From NCBI GenBank assembly GCA_019096065.1, contig JAGUCH010000007.1, forward strand, positions 766,501-830,500: 64,000 bases of DNA. The letters are read 5' to 3'. The position numbers and the translations under genes are program-made. The stretch is from Paracyclopina nana. Taxonomy: Eukaryota > Arthropoda > Copepoda > Cyclopoida > Cyclopettidae. Numbering within the stretch: the stretch's first letter is position 1; each line of letters begins with the position of its first letter. The notes below the pieces were generated by a model. It was not told where the DNA came from. It saw nothing but the letters and a program-made list of their open reading frames with translations, and searched no databases. This document shows, one piece after another, positions 22,391 through 64,000 of this stretch.

Positions 22391-22874
22391 TAGAGGTGTA
22401 TCGGGCTCAGGCCCGAGCCCGAAAGCCCGATACCAATTTCTGGCCCGAGCTAAATAAGACCCCAGCCCGAGCCCGACTCGGGCCGATTTACAGAAAGCCC
22501 GAAAAAGCCCGAAGTCATTTTCAAAAAGCCCGAAGTGGCCCGAATGACATTCTTTAAAAATTCAAAACTTCAGAAAAACAATTGCTCCAGATTGTGAGCT
22601 TTAATATTGAGTTTGATTGTTAAGTATCCCTTCATTTGCATAACCTTCAGTAATTGATGAGAATTTCATAACAATAAAGTGATTTTTATTCAGATTTTTC
22701 CTGAAAAATTGTAGATTTTGTCTCGGCCCGAAAAGCCCGTAACATTTTTTGACTGGCCCGAAAAAGCCCGAAGCCTGAAAAAAAAGTTCAGGCCCGGCCC
22801 GACCCGACCCGAGTAATTTTTTGAAAGCCCGAGCCCGACCCGAGCCCGACATTTCTTGGCCCGATACACCTCTA
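22391..22874 (+). mobile_element. GCCCGA-rich hAT-like MITE, copy 3 (intact, 484 bp)
   Basis: This is the intact copy. It begins TAGAGGTGTATCGGGC and ends GGCCCGATACACCTCTA, and exact 8-bp duplications (ACTAAAGA) flank both ends. About 150 bp at each end is made of GCCCGA hexamers, mirrored in the other arm. The centre is AT-rich and non-coding. An 8-bp duplication and a TAGAGGTG terminus are typical of hAT non-autonomous elements; the superfamily is inferred, since no transposase is present. Confidence 0.85.
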
Positions 22875-37781: not shown

Positions 37782-37789
37782 TCTATTTT
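37782..37789 (+). repeat. Target-site duplication of FB-B (left)
   Basis: TCTATTTT, identical to 41438-41445. Confidence 0.85.
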
Positions 37790-37893
37790 GGCCAGGACTG
37801 CATACCCAACCTTCAAATACTCCCAAAACAAGATCATACAAGACCACATTAACAGAACATAAGTAATCAAAACATTATTCATAAAGATTTGAT

Positions 37894-39885
37894 GCACATA
37901 AAAACAATCTGAACAATCTGAACATTCTGCACAATCCGAACATTCTGAACAATCTGAACATTCTGAACATTCTGAACAATCTGAACATTCTGAACAATCC
38001 GAACATTCTGAACAATCCGAACATTCTGAACAATCCAAACAATCCGAACAATCTGAACAATCCGAACAATCCGAACAATCTGAACAATCCGAACAATCCG
38101 AACATTCTGAACAATCCGAACATTCTGAACAATCCGAACATTCTGAACAATCCAAACAATCCGAACAATCTGAACATTCTGAACAATCCGAACAATCTGA
38201 ACAATCTGAACATTCTGAACAATCTGAACATTCTGAACATTCTGACAATCTGAATAATCTGAACAATCTGAACATTCTGAACAATCCGAACATTCTGAAC
38301 AATCCGAACAATCCGAACAATCTGTACATTCTGGACAATCCGAACAATCCGAACATTCTGAACATTCTGAACAATCCGAACATTCTGAACAATCCGAACA
38401 ATCTGAACATTCTGACAATCTGAATAATCTGAACAATCTGAACATTCTGAACAATCCGAACATTCTGAACAATCCGAACAATCCGAACAATCTGTACATT
38501 CTGGACAATCCGAACAATCCGAACATTCTGAACAATCCAAACAATCCGAACAATCTGAACAATCTGAACATTCTGAACAATCCGAACAATCTGAACAATC
38601 TGAACATTCTGAACAATCCGAACAATCCGAACATTCTGAACAATCCGAACAATCCGAACAATCCGAACAATCCGAACAATCTGAACAATCTGAACAATCC
38701 GAACATTCTGAACAATCCAAACAATCTGAACATTCTGAACAATCCGAACAATCTGTACATTCTGGACAATCCGAACAATCCGAACATTCTGAACAATCCG
38801 AACAATCTGAACAATCTGAATATTCTGAACAATCCGAACAATCTGAACAATCTGAACATTCTGAACAATCCGAACAATCCGAACAATCTGAACAATCTGA
38901 ATATTCTGAACAATCCGAACAATCTGAACAATCTGAACATTCTGAACAATCCGAACAATCCGAACATTCTGAACAATCCGAACATTCTGAACAATCCGAA
39001 CATTCTGAACAATCCAAACAATCCGAACAATCTGAACATTCTGAACAATCCGAACAATCTGAACAATCCAAACAATCCGAACAATCTGAACAATCTGAAC
39101 ATTCTGAACAATCCAAAAAATCTGAACATTCTGAACAATCCGAACATTCTGAACAATCTGAACATTCTGAACAATCCGAACATTCTGAACAATCCAAACA
39201 ATCTGAACAATCTGAACAATCCGAAGAATCCGAACAATCTGAACAATCTGAACAATCTGAACATTCTGAACAATCTGAACATTCTGAACAATCTGAACCT
39301 TCTGAACAATCCGAACAATCCAAACATTCTGAACAATCCGAACATTCTGAACAATCCGAACAATCCGAACAATCTGTACATTCTGGACAATCCGAACAAT
39401 CCGAACATTCTGAACATTCTGAACAATCCGAACATTCAGAACAATCCGAACAATCTGAACATTCTGACAATCTGAATAATCTGAACAACAATCCGAACAA
39501 TCCGAACATTCTGAACAATCCGAACATTCTGAACAATCCGAACAATCCGAACAATGTGTACATTCTGGACAATCCGAACAATCAGAACATTCAGAACATT
39601 CTGAACAATCCGAACATTCTGAACAATCCGAACAATCTGAACATTCTGACAATCTGAATAATCTGAACAATCTGAACATTCTGAACAATCCGAACATTCT
39701 GAACAATCCGAACAATCCGAACAATCTGTACATTCTGGACAATCCGAACAATCCGAACATTCTGAACAATCCCAACAATCCGAACAATCTGAACATTCTG
39801 AACAATCCAAACAATCTGAACATTCTGAACAATTCGAACAATCCGAACAATCTGTACATTCTGGACAATCCGAACAATCCAAACA
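37894..39885. repeat. 9-bp minisatellite, left arm of FB-B
   Basis: About 220 tandem nonamers of three main types: GAACAATCT, GAACAATCC and GAACATTCT. A GTACATTCTGGACAATCC variant recurs about every 200-450 bp and marks higher-order units. Because 9 is divisible by 3 and the units lack stops, very long open frames arise by chance. Confidence 0.95.
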
Positions 39886-40750
39886 ATTTTATGAAAATTT
39901 TTGTGAGAAGAAAAGCACATTTTGCCTGCTACAGCAGCGCCATCTCTGAGCTGAAAAGTGCAAAACTAAAATTAAACTGGATAAACAAAGTCAAAAATCT
40001 CCTAGTTTTGAAGAAAACTCTTTCAAACACTTGGTTGTTGACAATAGCCAAAAATCTTTTAATATTTATTTCTGTCATTATTGAGCAATTGCTTATTAAA
40101 ACCTAATTTACGAAATTCTCTCCAAACAAGTCATTTTTCAACCAATTGAAAAATGCAAAAGGCAATCTTAATAAAAAATCTTTTAATGTTTATTTCTGTC
40201 ATTATTGAGCAATTGCTTATTAAAACCTAATTTACGAAATTCTCTCCAAACAAGTCATTTTTCAACCAATTGAAAAATGCAAAAGGCAATCTTAATATTT
40301 GAGCATTGTACACATTTCTTATTTTATGAAAATTTTTGTGAGAAGAAAAGCACATTTTGCCTGCTACAGCAGCGCCATCTCTGAGCTGAAAAGTGCAAAA
40401 CTAAAATTAAACTGGATAAACAAAGTCAAAAATCTCCTAGTTTTGAAGAAAACTCTTTCAAACACTTGGTTGTTGACAATAGCCAAAAATCTTTTAATAT
40501 TTATTTCTGTCATTATTGAGCAATTGCTTATTAAAACCTAATTTACGAAATTCTCTCCAAACAAGTCATTTTTCAACCAATTGAAAAATGCAAAAGGCAA
40601 TCTTAATATTTGAGCATTGTACACATTTCTTATTTTATGAAAATTTTTGTGAGAAGAAAAGCACATTTTGCCTGCTACAGCAGCGCCATCTCTGAGCTGA
40701 AAAGTGCAAAACTAAAATTAAACTGGATAAACAAAGTCAAAAATCTCCAA
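39886..40750 (+). repeat. 311-bp direct repeats in the core of FB-B
   Basis: Units start ATTTTATGAAAATTTTTGTG at 39886, 40321 and 40632. The spacing of 435 bp and then 311 bp is explained by an extra 124-bp partial unit at about 40173-40296. The copies are almost identical, indicating recent amplification or conversion. Confidence 0.85.
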
Positions 40751-41323
40751 GATTGTTCATATTGTTAGGATTGATCAGAATGTTCAGAGTTTTCAGATTG
40801 TTCAGAATGTTTGGATTGTTCAGAATGTTCGGATTGTTCAGAATGTTTGAATTGTTTGGATTGTTCAGAATGTTCGGATTGTTCAGATTGTTGGGATTGT
40901 TCAGAATGTTCAGATTGTTCGGATTGTTCAGAATGTTTAGATTGTTCGGATTGTTCGGATTGTTTGGATTGTTCAGATTGTTCAGAGTTTTCAGATTGTT
41001 CAGAATGTTTGGATTTATAGATTGTTCAGAATGTTTGGATTGTTCAGAATGTTCGGATTGTTCGGATTGATCAGAATGTTCGGTATGCTAGGATTGTTCA
41101 GGATTGTTCTGATTGTTCGGATTGTTCAGATTGTTCGGATTGTTTAGATTGTTCAGATTGTTCGGATTGTTCAGAATGTTCAGATTGTTCAGATTGTTCG
41201 GATTGTTCAGAATGTTCAGATTGTTCGGATTGTTCAGATTGTTCAGATTGTTCAGATTGTTCAGATTGTTCAGATTGTTCAGATTGTTCAGATTGTTCAG
41301 ATTGTTCAGAATGTTCAGATTGT
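40751..41323. repeat. 9-bp minisatellite, right arm of FB-B
   Basis: Inverse complement type of the left array (GATTGTTCA, GATTGTTCG, GAATGTTCA). Much shorter than the left arm. Confidence 0.95.
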
Positions 41324-41437
41324 TTTTATGTGCATCTAATCTTTATGAATAATGCTTTGAGTACTTATTTATTGTTTATGTATTCTTGTATAGTCTTGAT
41401 TTGGGAGTATTTGAAGGTTGGGTATGCAGTCCTGGCC

Positions 41438-41445
41438 TCTATTTT
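41438..41445 (+). repeat. Target-site duplication of FB-B (right)
   Basis: TCTATTTT, identical to 37782-37789. Confidence 0.85.
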
Positions 41446-56464: not shown

Positions 56465-57167
56465 CGCAGATATTTTGCTTAACCACGTGCATTTGTTTAC
56501 GTTTTCCTCAAGTTTGACGAAAGATACAATTTTAAGATACGTACAACTCGTTCAAGCCAAATTTGCCTTAGCGATGAGACTCGATTGCCATCTTTCCAAT
56601 TTGGTTTCAATTCTTGAAACTGATTTGGAACACTGAAGGAATTATGTGCTTTCTTATAAGATTTTCCTTGACTGAATGAATGTTGTGAATGGGACTGAGG
56701 ATTTATTGCCTGTATCTGCTGAGATATGTTAGCGGAGATATCCTGCTTATCAGCTCCTAGTTTAGGCTCATCGAAGCTAGGTTGTGCACTATATAGTATA
56801 TAGGTGAGCTTGAATTGCCAAGTAAGCAACTCGGAAGTCAGTCAAGTGTAACATGCTGATAAGTTGCGATAAGTTTGATGGATGTTGAATCAGCACTATT
56901 CACCTGAATAAGGCTTCTGAATGTCCTGCTCATTTTGTGAGACCAAACTCTGAAGGAAAACCACTTAAACAAAAGGAAAGGCGTGAGTTGTCACTTTTCA
57001 GCTGAAAAAACAGATCGACTCAAAGTCGGCTACAACGTGAACAATCCCAATTTAAGAGAATTGTTGGGCTCAACCTGGATTATTCAGGTTTAATTAAAAT
57101 TCAACTTTAAACCTTTTAGACATGAAAAAAGCTAGACGTGGCTAAGAAAATGATCGGTTTAGTTGAG
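56465..57167. other. Intergenic region before FB-A
   Basis: AT-rich, with no recognised gene. An open frame of 110 codons on the minus strand (56497-56829) shows no domain, and the missing mannosidase N-terminus is not encoded here. Confidence 0.45.
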
Positions 57168-57175
57168 CGAAAACA
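57168..57175 (+). repeat. Target-site duplication of FB-A (left)
   Basis: CGAAAACA, identical to 63941-63948. Confidence 0.9.
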
Positions 57176-57259
57176 GGTATTCAGTTGGTACTCAGCTACA
57201 TGGATTTCACAGTTTTTCTCAAAAAACGTAGATGCTTCAAATTATTTATTCATAGGCTT

Positions 57260-58225
57260 TTTTGACTATTTGGACTTTATGGACTATTTTGACTTTTCTG
57301 CCTTTTCAAAGAAGTACGACTTTTTGGACTATTTGGACTTTTTGACTATTTGGACTTTTCTGACTTTTCAAACTTTTGGGACTTTCTGGACTTTTTGGAC
57401 TATTTGGACTTTTTGGTCTTTAGGCTTTTCTGCCTTTTCAAACTAGCAGGACTTTTTGGACTATTTGGACTTTTTAGACTTTTTGTACTTTTCTGCCTTT
57501 TCAAACTTAAAGGACTTGAAGGACTTTTTGGACTATTTGGACTTTTTTGACTATTTGGACTTTTTTGACTATTTTGACTTTTCTGACTTTTCAAACTTTA
57601 GGGACTTTCTGGACTTTTTGGACTTTTTGGACTATTTGGACTTTTTGGTTTTTAGACTTTTCTGCCTTTTCAAACTAGCAGGACTTTTTGGACTATTTGG
57701 ACTTTTTTGACTTTTCTGCCTTTTCAAACTAGTAGGACTTTTTGGACTTTTTGGACTTTTTGGACTTTTTGGACTATTTGGACTTTATTGACTATTTTGA
57801 CTTTTCTGACTTTTCAAACTTTAGGGACTTTCTGGACTTTTTGGACTTTTTGGACTATTTGGACTTTTTGGTTTTAAGACTTTTCTGCCTTTTCAAACTA
57901 GCAGGACTTTTTGGACTATTTGGACTTTTTTGACTATTTTGACTTTTCTGCCTTTTCGAACTAGTAGGACTATTTGGACTTTTTGGACTATTTGGACTTT
58001 TTGGACTATTTGGACTTTTTGGACTATTTTGACTTTTCTGACTTTTCAAACTTTAGGGACTTTCTGGACTTTTTGGACTATTTGGACTTTTTGGTTTTAA
58101 GACTTTTCTGCCTTTTCAAACTAGCAGGACTTTTTGGACTATTTGGACTTTTTTGACTATTTTGACTTTTCTGCCTCTTCAAACTAGTAGGACTTTTTGG
58201 ACTATTTGGACTTTTTTGACTATTT
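57260..58225. repeat. 9-11-bp minisatellite in the left arm of FB-A
   Basis: Short units of the type GGACTTTTT / GGACTATTT / TGACTATTT are arranged in higher-order blocks of about 223-233 bp, marked by CTTTTCAAACTAGCAGG (57438, 57671, 57894, about 58116). No gene is coded. Confidence 0.9.
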
Positions 58226-58953
58226 CTGGGGGGGCCTAGGACCCCGATTTTGACCCCAATTTTGGGCCCAGTCCCCACTATAAAACCCAAAACTAAGCTA
58301 CTGAGCACATTATTGACCCACTATACCTTACATTGATCCTAACTAAGGCCCCCTGACCCCGATTTTGACCCCGTTTGGGGGGGCCATCCAGATGTTGGAC
58401 CCCGTTTTTTTTGCATATTTTCACTCGGAGCAAACACAAAATTGACTTTTGAGTTACAGCTGAGTCCTTTATGGAGCCAACTCAGCACAGTTAGCTGATT
58501 TCAAAACTGCTGAGTCACTTTCTCAGCACTTTTTATCTCGGAAACGATGAGAGATATCAAGAAACTTATTTAGCAAAAGTTGCTCATCACCCCAAAATAC
58601 GCAAATATACCAAGTCTCAGCATCTCTGCCAAGTGACTCAGCAATCCAAAATGACAAGATAGAGCAAAGTTATTGAAGCAAATGTTGTTGCAAATAAATC
58701 AAACATCATTTTGACAGAGTCTCAGCAAAGTAAATAAACTGACTCAGCAATGCAAAATGACAAGATGCAGCAAAGTCATTGAAGCAAAAGTTGTTGCAAA
58801 TAAATCAAACATCATTTTGACAGAGTCTCAGCAAAGTAAATGACCGACTCAGCAACTCTAAATCTTTAGTTAGAGAGCTGAAATATGATATGCAAGTAGT
58901 CCTTGATGTCCCTTTCATTTCTTATTTTATGATATTTTCTGAGAGACTGCTCC

Positions 58954-61900
58954 TCTCCTTCTGGGGAAGAAGTCTGCTGAGACGCTCCGTTGTTAAGGGC
59001 GGGTTCACCTGCTTATTATGGCCGTTATTTTGGCAAAATATTGGAGAGAAATACTAAAAAACTGAGAATTTTTATATTGGTGTAGGATGGCTTTTGGTAC
59101 CAATAGCCCGATTCCGAAGTCAAAATCTGAAAAATGATTTTACAAATGCAAAATATTTGCAAATTTCAGCATAATATCGCACGTTATTTTGCTGGTAATA
59201 ATGCAATTGAGCATGGCCTAAGACATCGCGCATCGAAGTTTACTACTACAGACTTTGCTTACTTTTTTATTTTAGCCCGAATTTGGCCTGGGCTGAAAGT
59301 GAGGGGAAAGTAGTAATTCTAATTCCAGTCAAATTTTGGGCGACTTAGCAAAATTTGGTATACGGTCTTTGAATACTAATACAGTTTATAAGCCTTGCAT
59401 TTGAGTGTAAGAAAATATAGAGGGAGCTCATTTCCTGCGTTTCTGAAAATTCCTCCGCTGATCTTAGGCCTCTGAATGCAGCACCTTTTTCATTTGCTTT
59501 CATATAAAAACTGATGATATTGCAGCATAAAACCAAAACATGAGCTGTCATTTGAAGACATTTGCAAAATGTTAGTGTTTTCAGAGAATTTTCTTTTTGC
59601 CAAAAGCATAGTTCCAATTGATATTGAGTTCTTGGGTGAATATGCCATGCACAAACAGAGATTTTTTACCAAAATTGTTGTTGATAAAAATACTAATGAG
59701 TTTACTTTAATCATTTACAAAAATACTCCATAGGTCTCAAGAAAAACTCAAAAATCCTTAATTCCCTTTGCTACGCCGCTGCGTTGATACTAGCTCTATT
59801 TTCACAATAGGGGGCGCTATTTACCCTCAACGGCAGGGGCTATAGAGGAGATGGCCCTGACTTCGCAGTATCAAATTGGAGCCAGATATCTGGTCTAGAA
59901 CCAGAGATATCGCGCGCCAAAGTTTAGCGCTTTTTAGCATCCGTCTGCTGAGATTTACGGAGACAAGGAGCTGAGATATCTTGTTTACTATGAAGCAAAA
60001 AGTGTTCCATTTGATCTCCCATTTCCAAAACTGTAAATAGTTCCAAAATCGGAGCATTTTTCGAATTTTCGCATGCTTAACGAGTTTTAAGTACAGGGCT
60101 ATGTACTACGTAGTATATAGAGCTTTTCGTTAAGAAGTAGCGGGCGCAAAAGTGGAGATATCAATTTAGCTATTAAGTAAAAGTAGTTTCTGCTGAGTCT
60201 CTGGATTCCAAAAATATAAACAGTTTTAAAATCGGATAAATACAAGCGGAGATAGCGCTGAGCGCTCAGCAGTACAGAACTTCGTAAATGAAAATGCGCT
60301 GAGACACTTTGAGTACTTTTAAAAGTGATAGAGAATGTCAAGACGAATTCATAGCCGCAAAAAGAAGTGAGCTGAGACTCTCCGTTGTTGAGATATAGCT
60401 CCCCGAAGTTTATTATATAGAAGCTTTGTTTACTTTTCATTTTGGGCCCGAATTTGGCCTGTTTTGGGGCCTAAAACTACTCGAAATGCGGCGATTCTTA
60501 GTGCCAAGTCTTCTACTTGTTTTCTTGGACTTTTTCAAGTATTTGAGGACTTTATAGCTTTCTAAAGTGGAAATTTCCGCGAAAAACGGTTCGCGTCAAG
60601 TTTTTGCTGATCGAATTAAAGTTCAAATGCGGACTTGGACTGCTAATAAACCTTGTAGAGAAGGTTGCCCTGACTTCATAGAATCAAATTTGGGCCAGAT
60701 ATCTGGTCTAGAACCGGAGATATCGCGCGCCAAAGTTTACCGCTTAATAGCGGCCTAACTGCTGAGTTTTACGGAGACAAGGAGCTGAGATATCTTGTTT
60801 ACTATGTAGCAAAAAGTGTTCAGTTTGGCCTCCCATTTCCAAAACTGTAAAGAGTTCCAAAATCGGAGCATTTTTCGAATTTTGACATTGAATAGACGGA
60901 TGAAACGCAGCCTTATGTACTACGTAGTACATAGGGCTTTTCGTTAAGAAGTAGAGCCAGTAAAAGTTGACTTATCAAGTTTGCTATGAAATGAAAAAAT
61001 GATCTGCTGAGTCTCAGGATTCCATAGGTATAAACAGTTTTAAAATCGGACAATTACGAGCTGAGATAGCGCTGAGCGCTCAGTAGTACAGAACAAGCGG
61101 ACTTGGAAGTGGACTTGTGGACTTGACTTTGAAGTCCAAAGTTGTAGAGGAGCTCAGCCCAACTTCAGAACAGTAAATAAAGGATTTCAGCAGCTCAGCA
61201 GCAGAGTTATTTAGCCAGATATGCTAACTGCTGAGTTTTACGGAGACTTCTAGCTGAGACATCTTGTTTACTATGTAACAAAAAGTGTTCAGTTTGATCT
61301 CCCATTTCCAAAACTGTAAAAAGTTCCAAAATCGGACCATTTTTCGAATTTTGGCATTGAATAGACGGATGAAACGCAGCATAGTATGTACTACGTAGTA
61401 CATAGGGCTTTTCGTTAAGAACTAGCGCAAGTAAAAGTGGAGATATCAATTTTGCTATAAAGTAAAAGTAGTTTTTGCTGAGTCTCAGGATTTCAAAGAT
61501 CTAAAAAGTTTTAAAATCGGACAACTAAGAGCTGAGATAGCGCTGAGCGCTCAGTAGTACAGAACAAGCGGACTTGGAAGTGGACTTGTGGACTTGACTT
61601 TGAAGTACAAAGTTATAGAGGAGCTCAGCCCAACTTCAGAACAGTAAATAGATCCTTCCTGAGACGCTCCGTTGCTGAGATATTAATCGTCAAAGTTTAC
61701 TACTGCTGAGCCCCAAGAAAAAGTGCACTTTTCTGCTGAGTTCTCCGATTGGGCTGAGACTTGGTACAAACGATCTACTAGATGCCATGACTCAGCACAC
61801 CAAAGGATTTGGCGCTCAGCAGCTCAGCAGCTGAGTAATAAAGCAAAAACCTAAAAATGGGGTCAAATGGGAGGCTGAATAACTCGGCTGCTGAGCGTTT

Positions 61901-62162
61901 TTGGGCATATGTTTACTTGGGATTATCTGCTCAGAATCTAATGGAGACCAATCGTATCAAGTGTCAGCTCAACCCGAGCACTTTGAAAAATCAGCCACTT
62001 TTCTTGGGAAAACTCAACTTTTTCCCAAGTCATTTTATTGACTTGACTTGAGTCAAAAGCTGTAAAAATGAGCCCACGACTTCAAAACAGTAAATTGACG
62101 TGTGCTGAGACGCTCAGTTGCTGAGATATTGGGGGTCAAAGTATGGAAAACAGGCCCAAGAT
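58954..62162. other. Non-coding core of FB-A
   Basis: Holds three imperfect direct repeats of about 350-450 bp (about 59870-60290, 60690-61090 and 61205-61560). Each contains AAAGTGTTC…CCCATTTCCAAAACTGTAAA, a TACTACGTAGTA palindrome (60104, 60918, 61389) and GCTGAGCGCTCAG (60257, 61071, 61542). CTGAG/CTCAG pentamers are strikingly frequent throughout. No protein-coding potential was recognised. Confidence 0.75.
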
Positions 62163-62890
62163 GGAGCAGTCTCTCAGAAAATATCATAAAATAAGAAATG
62201 AAAGGGACATCAAGGACTACTTGCATATCATATTTCAGCTCTCTAACTAAAGATTTAGAGTTGCTGAGTCGGTCATTTACTTTGCTGAGACTCTGTCAAA
62301 ATGATGTTTGATTTATTTGCAACAACTTTTGCTTCAATGACTTTGCTGCATCTTGTCATTTTGCATTGCTGAGTCAGTTTATTTACTTTGCTGAGACTCT
62401 GTCAAAATGATGTTTGATTTATTTGCAACAACATTTGCTTCAATAACTTTGCTCTATCTTGTCATTTTGGATTGCTGAGTCACTTGGCAGAGATGCTGAG
62501 ACTTGGTATATTTGCGTATTTTGGGGTGATGAGCAACTTTTGCTAAATAAGTTTCTTGATATCTCTCATCGTTTCCGAGATAAAAAGTGCTGAGAAAGTG
62601 ACTCAGCAGTTTTGAAATCAGCTAACTGTGCTGAGTTGGCTCCATAAAGGACTCAGCTGTAACTCAAAAGTCAATTTTGTGTTTGCTCCGAGTGAAAATA
62701 TGCAAAAAAAACGGGGTCCAACATCTGGATGGCCCCCCCAAACGGGGTCAAAATCGGGGTCAGGGGGCCTTAGTTAGGATCAATGTAAGGTATAGTGGGT
62801 CAATAATGTGCTCAGTAGCTTAGTTTTGGGTTTTATAGTGGGGACTGGGCCCAAAATTGGGGTCAAAATCGGGGTCCTAGGCCCCCCCAG

Positions 62891-63856
62891 AAATAGTCAA
62901 AAAAGTCCAAATAGTCCAAAAAGTCCTACTAGTTTGAAGAGGCAGAAAAGTCAAAATAGTCAAAAAAGTCCAAATAGTCCAAAAAGTCCTGCTAGTTTGA
63001 AAAGGCAGAAAAGTCTTAAAACCAAAAAGTCCAAATAGTCCAAAAAGTCCAGAAAGTCCCTAAAGTTTGAAAAGTCAGAAAAGTCAAAATAGTCCAAAAA
63101 GTCCAAATAGTCCAAAAAGTCCAAATAGTCCAAAAAGTCCAAATAGTCCTACTAGTTCGAAAAGGCAGAAAAGTCAAAATAGTCAAAAAAGTCCAAATAG
63201 TCCAAAAAGTCCTGCTAGTTTGAAAAGGCAGAAAAGTCTTAAAACCAAAAAGTCCAAATAGTCCAAAAAGTCCAAAAAGTCCAGAAAGTCCCTAAAGTTT
63301 GAAAAGTCAGAAAAGTCAAAATAGTCAATAAAGTCCAAATAGTCCAAAAAGTCCAAAAAGTCCAAAAAGTCCAAAAAGTCCTACTAGTTTGAAAAGGCAG
63401 AAAAGTCAAAAAAGTCCAAATAGTCCAAAAAGTCCTGCTAGTTTGAAAAGGCAGAAAAGTCTAAAAACCAAAAAGTCCAAATAGTCCAAAAAGTCCAAAA
63501 AGTCCAGAAAGTCCCTAAAGTTTGAAAAGTCAGAAAAGTCAAAATAGTCAAAAAAGTCCAAATAGTCAAAAAAGTCCAAATAGTCCAAAAAGTCCTTCAA
63601 GTCCTTTAAGTTTGAAAAGGCAGAAAAGTACAAAAAGTCTAAAAAGTCCAAATAGTCCAAAAAGTCCTGCTAGTTTGAAAAGGCAGAAAAGCCTAAAGAC
63701 CAAAAAGTCCAAATAGTCCAAAAAGTCCAGAAAGTCCCAAAAGTTTGAAAAGTCAGAAAAGTCCAAATAGTCAAAAAGTCCAAATAGTCCAAAAAGTCGT
63801 ACTTCTTTGAAAAGGCAGAAAAGTCAAAATAGTCCATAAAGTCCAAATAGTCAAAA
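62891..63856. repeat. 9-11-bp minisatellite in the right arm of FB-A
   Basis: Exact mirror of the left-arm array (AAAGTCCAAATAGTCC-type units), with the same higher-order spacing. Confidence 0.9.
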
Positions 63857-63940
63857 AAGCCTATGAATAAATAATTTGAAGCATCTACGTTTTTTGAGAA
63901 AAACTGTGAAATCCATGTAGCTGAGTACCAACTGAATACC

Positions 63941-63948
63941 CGAAAACA
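63941..63948 (+). repeat. Target-site duplication of FB-A (right)
   Basis: CGAAAACA, identical to 57168-57175. Confidence 0.9.
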
Positions 63949-64000
63949 GCTCAACTTGCCCATGAAAACGCTGCTCGGTCTCAAGCTGAACTCGTTGAGC

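Follow-up and report, generated by a model that had tools for sequence, protein, structure and literature searches.

The TU elements of sea urchins and the FB elements of Drosophila have long inverted arms filled with repeats, TU elements also having 8-bp duplications, and we know of no subtelomeric core in either. By description only, they can be likened to an element that lies in a window of 64,000 nucleotides from the copepod Paracyclopina nana (C7:766501-830500, the 10 contigs of the 92-Mb genome being labelled C1 to C10). This element, at positions 57168-63948 of the window, is very probably a DNA transposon with a foldback design, non-autonomous and of the cut-and-paste type, that is moved in trans, and whose inner arms and most of whose core are akin to subtelomeric repeats. 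The insertion in the window is real and probably young. A preliminary description, made from the letters of the window alone, had proposed a foldback element with an 8-bp target-site duplication, and this is borne out here by relatives with the same terminus in the same genome; a second foldback in the window and the kinship with subtelomeric repeats are additions to that description.

Among described transposons, Mutator-like elements (MULEs) make target-site duplications of 8-11 bp (PMC6446971), and Rehavkus combines a 9-bp duplication with a transposase that has a PHD finger (PMC6446971). It has been reported that the repeats in the arms of Galileo bind the Galileo transposase (PMC4079207), and by analogy the 9-bp arm units described below may also bind a transposase.

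Anatomy and reality of the window element

The two arms of the element (57176-58953 and 62163-63940), compared base by base, are perfect mirror images of 1778 bp each, with 0 mismatches and 0 indels, and the pairing ends sharply, with nothing further inward or outward. The equal length and freedom from differences that the preliminary description had noted therefore hold over all 1778 bp, and the duplication that it had called intact is indeed present on both sides, as the 8-bp direct repeat CGAAAACA directly outside each arm. Each arm is tripartite, with a terminal domain, a minisatellite of 9-bp period and an inner domain of 728 bp. The core between the arms is 3209 bp long and contains short open frames only; of the five overlapping frames of at least 80 aa, all but 62053-62295 were compared with Pfam, and these four had no match with an E-value of 0.1 or lower; Rfam gave no match at gathering score in 56500-64000. 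The core also contains a dispersed repeat of 456 bp, which showed no clear duplication at its ends, three other places being examined.

A chance inverted repeat is ruled out by a control over the whole window, in which all maximal inverted pairs were listed whose outer 11 bp match perfectly and whose members lie 0.2-15 kb apart. An exact direct repeat of 7-10 bp stands at the outer edges of only 3 of these 4204 pairs, in all three cases of exactly 8 bp, and these are the 57176-63940 element and the pairs at 37790-41437 and 22391-22874. Shifting one flank by 1 bp found the same three again as 7-mers, and nine other shifts (2-25 bp) gave none. Ten first-order Markov random windows also gave no duplications, yet these hold just 344-402 inverted pairs each, and because they contain so few the flank-shift test is the stronger control. 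The element at 22391-22874, of 484 bp, has 20-bp inverted ends TAGAGGTGTATCGG and the 8-bp duplication ACTAAAGA.

The terminal 93 bp of the window element match 13 places in the genome, and a genome pattern search with its 21-bp terminus, allowing up to 3 mismatches, found 14 places as against 1 for the reversed pattern. The preliminary description had named two checks on its reading, a further locus that shares the termini and an empty site. The former is provided by C6:6301673-6310474, a complete 8.8-kb relative with the same terminus and with its own 8-bp duplication, CTGCTGGG, on both sides. The latter is provided in part, for the C6 insertion and not for the window copy. When 250 bp of flank from each side of the C6 relative were joined across one copy of the duplication, 22 dispersed places matched along the full 500 bases, with 81-96% identity, and others partly; 3 of the 22 (on C3, C8 and C7) were read across the junction, and in each of these the target is present once, with CTGCTGGG lying within AAGCTGCTGGGGAGCAAC. 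As these three paralogous empty sites carry the target once, comparison with the filled site indicates that this relative inserted precisely, with duplication of 8 bp. With the window and C6 copies, C2:10253932-10256609 is a third complete element of this family (family 1). Four single-end copies (L011, L012, L014 and L022) had no second end in the stretch fetched, and exact patterns for two termini had no matches in a viral contig collection (viral_contigs) searched for viral carriers. A related terminus, GGTTTTCAGTTGTTACTCAGC, is found at four loci, L015-L018 (C7:656132, C7:2562150, C8:1817736 and C2:16013184), and as GTTGCAT lies just outside it in all four these termini may sit within a larger repeat. 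Together with C8:6713213, these four make up the rest of the terminus matches.

Three causes had been put forward in the preliminary description for the identity of the arms, namely very recent insertion, recent conversion of one arm by the other, or a mirror generated by assembly. It is very improbable that the assembler duplicated one true arm in reverse. Such an error would be in keeping with 0 differences in 1778 bp, even in the minisatellite, but the limits of the mirror coincide precisely with an 8-bp direct repeat, a 3.2-kb core lies within it, the C6 relative has the same layout with diverged arms, and the window alone contains three inverted-repeat elements with 8-bp duplications. The remaining two causes are not separable by the data. 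Set against the window arm, one C6 arm has 36 mismatches and the other 12, in addition to gaps, and 47 mismatches separate the two C6 arms. In a separate comparison by segments, the C6 arms show 40 mismatches and 11 gaps between their minisatellites, and 4 mismatches and 1 indel between their inner parts. Between the cores of the window and C6 copies, the C6 core being about 2 kb longer, there are 23 mismatches in approximately 3175 bases aligned in three pieces. The family is therefore old enough to have diverged, yet the arms in the window show no difference, which would be accounted for if hairpin copying or gap repair had recently converted one arm to the other in an insertion that is itself not young. 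We consider this possible but doubtful, as a source element with arms already identical, inserted once and recently, accounts for all of this without an extra step, and recent insertion is favoured as the source of arm identity.

Related foldback families and an inversion signature

The second foldback of the window, at 37790-41437, belongs to a family (family 2) with the ends GGCCAGGACTGC, and its terminus matches 22 places in the genome that form 11 inverted pairs, spanning 0.73 to 35 kb. The ten pairs besides the window copy were read at their ends only, and 7 of these 10 have exact 8-bp duplications. Exact 8-bp duplications accompany the end pairs C4:9101488-9136689 (35 kb) and C1:5968101-5986461 (18 kb), the spans of which are deduced from the agreement of their ends and of their duplications. 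A third type of terminus, GGCAAAGTCTGCAG, bounds C8:1123391-1129398 (family 3), which has arms of 9-bp period and the 8-bp duplication CAACTGTT. The first 60 bp of the family-2 and family-3 termini are related, with 0 of 1000 shuffles reaching their score.

The window element and its kin show the features of foldbacks as a structural class. Long inverted arms composed mainly of tandem repeats are present in the window element, in 37790-41437 and in C8:1123391-1129398; target-site duplications at the outer arm ends are present as CGAAAACA, as CTGCTGGG and in the family-2 pairs counted above; copies sharing their ends are scattered over the genome; and empty sites are found for the C6 relative only.

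The family-2 copy C5:7254656-7262116 sits between ...ATGGCCGTTATTTT and GTTATTTTGGCAAA..., and its joined flanks match positions 58997-59067 of the window core at 94% over 71 bp, where GTTATTTT is present once, as well as several other fetched loci. One foldback has therefore jumped into DNA related to the core of another. Two further copies of family 2, C8:17430-20496 and C8:134679-137745, have no matching duplication within either copy; instead, their left 8-mers are mutual reverse complements, as are their right 8-mers. Since recombination between oppositely placed copies inverts the DNA that intervenes, duplications exchanged in this way are, at the level of sequence, what one expects if the 114,182 bp that separate the copies (C8:20496-134679) have been inverted. 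Galileo at the breakpoints of inversion 2z3 likewise shows exchanged duplications (PMC2775673), and the C8 pair is an example that bears the signature of an inversion made by foldbacks.

Kinship with subtelomeric repeats

Near contig ends, the inner arm has matches at 83-91% identity, and the core from its base 890 onward has matches at 81-93% over at least 250 bp, in addition to weaker short pieces. Such matches lie within 50 kb of at least 11 of the 20 contig ends, both of C2, C3, C5 and C6, the left of C7 and the right of C9 and C10, these counts being lower bounds from the best candidates scored and the right end of C10 being placed by subtraction from the genome total. C2 and C7 themselves begin with TTAGG-type arrays. 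The sole stretch of this kind that was read, L056 (C2:13500-23499), consists of a tandem unit of approximately 7.1 kb, with 99.8% identity between repeats and with spacers of TTAGG-type arrays. The unit contains a 726-bp inner-arm segment and then the core, ordered as in the window element read backwards, and further on a 237-bp inverted remnant of the arm segment; it has no alignment to the arm minisatellite or terminus.

Similar core DNA is also present at internal places of the genome. At C8:1123391-1129398 and at C4:8173000-8178500 (where the element ends are outside the stretch read), subtelomere-type core lies between inverted arms of other minisatellites, and at C2:2257800-2262300, an internal core-like place, the stretch fetched contained no inverted minisatellite arms. 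In a tree of ten cores, with 5 of 7 subtelomeric loci included and rooted by midpoint only, the window and C6 cores grouped as sister to the subtelomeric units (100/100), with C4, C8 and C2:2257800-2262300 outside. The inverted arm remnant in the subtelomeric unit hints that the foldback came first; subtelomeric DNA may alternatively have been captured by a foldback. It is conceivable, although we regard it as unlikely, that foldbacks act as a two-way shuttle between chromosome interiors and ends, with the subtelomeric repeat derived from a foldback whose minisatellite arms were lost and which was then amplified and homogenised among the ends, while living foldbacks continue to re-import or re-export such DNA. 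A foldback origin of the repeat is suggested because the unit keeps a foldback-like layout of an arm-like segment and its inverted remnant. If this were so, subtelomeres would have been built from transposons, and the movement of foldbacks, together with recombination, would help to maintain them.

Mobilisation and comparison with described elements

We infer that the window element is mobilised in trans. A transposase encoded elsewhere would bind the GGTATTCAG termini, and perhaps also repeated sites in the arms, and the 6.8-kb unit would be cut out and inserted at a staggered cut, giving rise to the 8-bp duplication. The arms would have been identical at insertion, or made so around that time by copying of one arm from the other. 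Elements of this kind would, in moving, bring subtelomere-type DNA into the interiors of chromosomes. The transposase is most likely Mutator-like, its membership being unproven: a duplication of 8 bp lies in the MULE range and also fits other superfamilies, and is shorter than the 9 bp of Rehavkus.

A number of results weigh against a foldback transposon moved in trans. The flanks of the window element match only themselves genome-wide, and its own empty site was not found. The duplication of the C2:10253932-10256609 relative has one mismatch, its flanks TCGTTTTG and CCGTTTTG being equal in 7 of 8 bases, and 3 of the 10 family-2 pairs lack a duplication, two of which are explained by exchange of flanks and one of which, C4:7098533-7099462, is not. 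The family-1 terminus is no more similar to the termini of families 2 and 3 than shuffled sequences are (740 and 758 of 1000 reach the score), and because of this a single transposase for all three families lacks support. Among the copies with mapped ends, only five were read whole, namely the two window foldbacks, the C6 relative, C2:10253932-10256609 and C8:1123391-1129398. The MULE domain PF10551 is found in open frames at 5 places in the genome and the TNP-like RNase-H domain PF21787, which we take to be of P/THAP9 type, at 11, none of these inside a copy with mapped ends, so that no transposase is tied to these termini. Three further transposase profiles had no matches in the genome: PF12762 (IS1595-type, Merlin), a single profile for which the control matched in 1 of 14 genomes, and PF05699 (hAT dimerisation) and PF20700 (considered for MULEs), for both of which the control was likewise without a match.

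The MULE genes were considered as partners of family 1 and rejected, the family-1 terminus at up to 6 mismatches having only three weak matches in the 5 MULE loci. Inverted repeats were present in 3 of 4 MULE loci examined (the longest of 99 nt at 75%, in L060), none with ends like those of family 1, and the 3.3 kb around each of the 5 PF10551 places contained no inverted ends with an 8-10-bp duplication. The MULE protein of L059 also has a RING-type zinc finger.

Two other origins have to be weighed against a Mutator-like foldback. A transposase of the P superfamily, as in Drosophila Galileo, appears rather unlikely: Galileo is a foldback-like P element with long repetitive arms (PMC2775673) and the genome has the 11 matches to PF21787, but Galileo duplications are of 7 bp, as against exact duplications of 8 bp here, and 0 of the 11 places lie within a mapped copy. 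It is far less probable still that the core is subtelomeric DNA displaced by break repair or a telomere-type rearrangement, with the inverted arms secondary. Core identity of approximately 91% with the subtelomeric units, and the arm-like segment with its 237-bp inverted remnant in the subtelomeric unit, are consistent with such a move, but exact termini, 8-bp duplications and the C6 empty sites are traces of a transposase, and similar core DNA is present in foldbacks with different arms. The duplications already contradict a moved subtelomere in the window and C6 copies, as do the empty sites in the case of C6. The reading of the window element as a trans-mobilised foldback transposon accordingly stands as the best explanation.

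The features of the window and of the loci elsewhere are collected in the table. Outside the element, the reading of one frame suggests a cuticle-type protein near 55.7-56.4 kb of the window. In a search with one protein, environmental proteins matched at up to 91% identity over 56% of the query, and the best hits with a species name were insects, at 39-42%; like the cuticle-type frame and the TTAGG-type telomere, these insect hits point to an arthropod.

Table. Coordinates of the two window foldbacks (window positions) and of further loci (contig positions)
Feature	Position	Strand	Basis or remark
Left target-site duplication CGAAAACA	57168..57175	+	arm/flank comparison
Left arm terminal domain, starts GGTATTCAGTTGGTACTCAGC	57176..57317	+	first 88 bp identical in both arms of C6 relative
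Left-arm minisatellite, GACTTTTTG-type 9-bp units, higher-order period 223 bp	57318..58225	+	tandem-repeat analysis
Left inner arm	58226..58953	+	83-91% identity to subtelomeric repeats
Core	58954..62162	+	short frames, no Pfam match in 4/5 frames of at least 80 aa
Nested dispersed repeat in core, ~456 bp	59388..59843	+	97-98% identity at 8 further listed places
Subtelomere-like part of core	59843..62162	-	subtelomeric unit L056 runs on from right inner arm in reverse direction
471-bp tandem duplication in core, 1.9 copies	60755..61650	+	tandem-repeat analysis
Right inner arm, mirror of 58226-58953	62163..62890	-	arm comparison
Right-arm minisatellite, mirror of 57318-58225	62891..63798	-	arm and tandem-repeat comparison
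Right arm terminal domain	63799..63940	-	arm comparison
Right target-site duplication CGAAAACA	63941..63948	+	arm/flank comparison
Left 8-bp duplication TCTATTTT of second foldback	37782..37789	+	flank comparison
Second foldback, terminus GGCCAGGACTGCAT, inverted 9-bp-period arms of unequal length, core ~39900-40750	37790..41437	+	
Right 8-bp duplication TCTATTTT of second foldback	41438..41445	+	flank comparison
Further long family-2 copy	C4:3433738-3444062		
Further long family-2 copy	C2:8551765-8560612		
MULE domain in open frame, L059	C6:2032167 region		
MULE domain in open frame	C2:6668156		
MULE domain in open frame	C5:6359976		
MULE domain in open frame	C1:17718506		
MULE domain in open frame	C7:3428256		

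In the literature, as judged by titles and the openings of abstracts, we found no foldback with a subtelomeric repeat as its core, and the parts consulted of PMC6431247, PMC9860276 and PMC13359780 contain nothing against the novelty of such a core. The foldback Tetris of Drosophila virilis is similar in being non-autonomous, with three complete copies and no autonomous partner found (PMC4079207). It also has modular inverted arms of up to 1735 bp with tandem repeats, 8-10-bp duplications and a link to satellite-like arrays (PMC4079207). Compared by description, the systems differ in that a 220-bp arm repeat of Tetris became a heterochromatic satellite (PMC4079207), whereas here the inner arm and core match chromosome-end repeats (in the stretch read, a 7.1-kb unit with TTAGG-type spacers) and the arms have a 9-bp period. 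Galileo shares long repetitive inverted arms, and inversions with exchanged duplications as in the C8 pair, but belongs to the P superfamily and makes 7-bp duplications with the consensus GTAGTAC (PMC2775673). Tm1, a Mutator/Foldback element of Meloidogyne, is alike in its composite arms, variable counts of short tandem units and several element types, and unlike in its 9-bp duplication, units of mostly 14 bp and predicted Phantom-like transposase (PMC3169594). The arms of one Tm1 element average 93.15% identity, with 5 of 61 elements at 100% in the parts compared (PMC3169594). Among the Mutator-like elements of insects, Muta1 has 8- or 9-bp duplications (PMC5225508) and Spectre 8-bp duplications (PMC6446971), in which they resemble the elements described here; in contrast, both encode transposases (PMC5225508, PMC6446971), and the arms of Spectre are of 74 bp (PMC6446971).

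The foldback design is thus known, and what makes these elements a variant worth pursuing is the DNA that they share with chromosome ends, the variety of arm types around one type of core, and the signature of an inversion with exchanged duplications. In one compact genome, a foldback family that looks recently mobile is linked to the DNA of chromosome ends. As such, these elements offer material for old questions, including how the identity of foldback arms is kept up, whether subtelomeric repeats originate from transposons, and how frequently foldbacks give rise to inversions.

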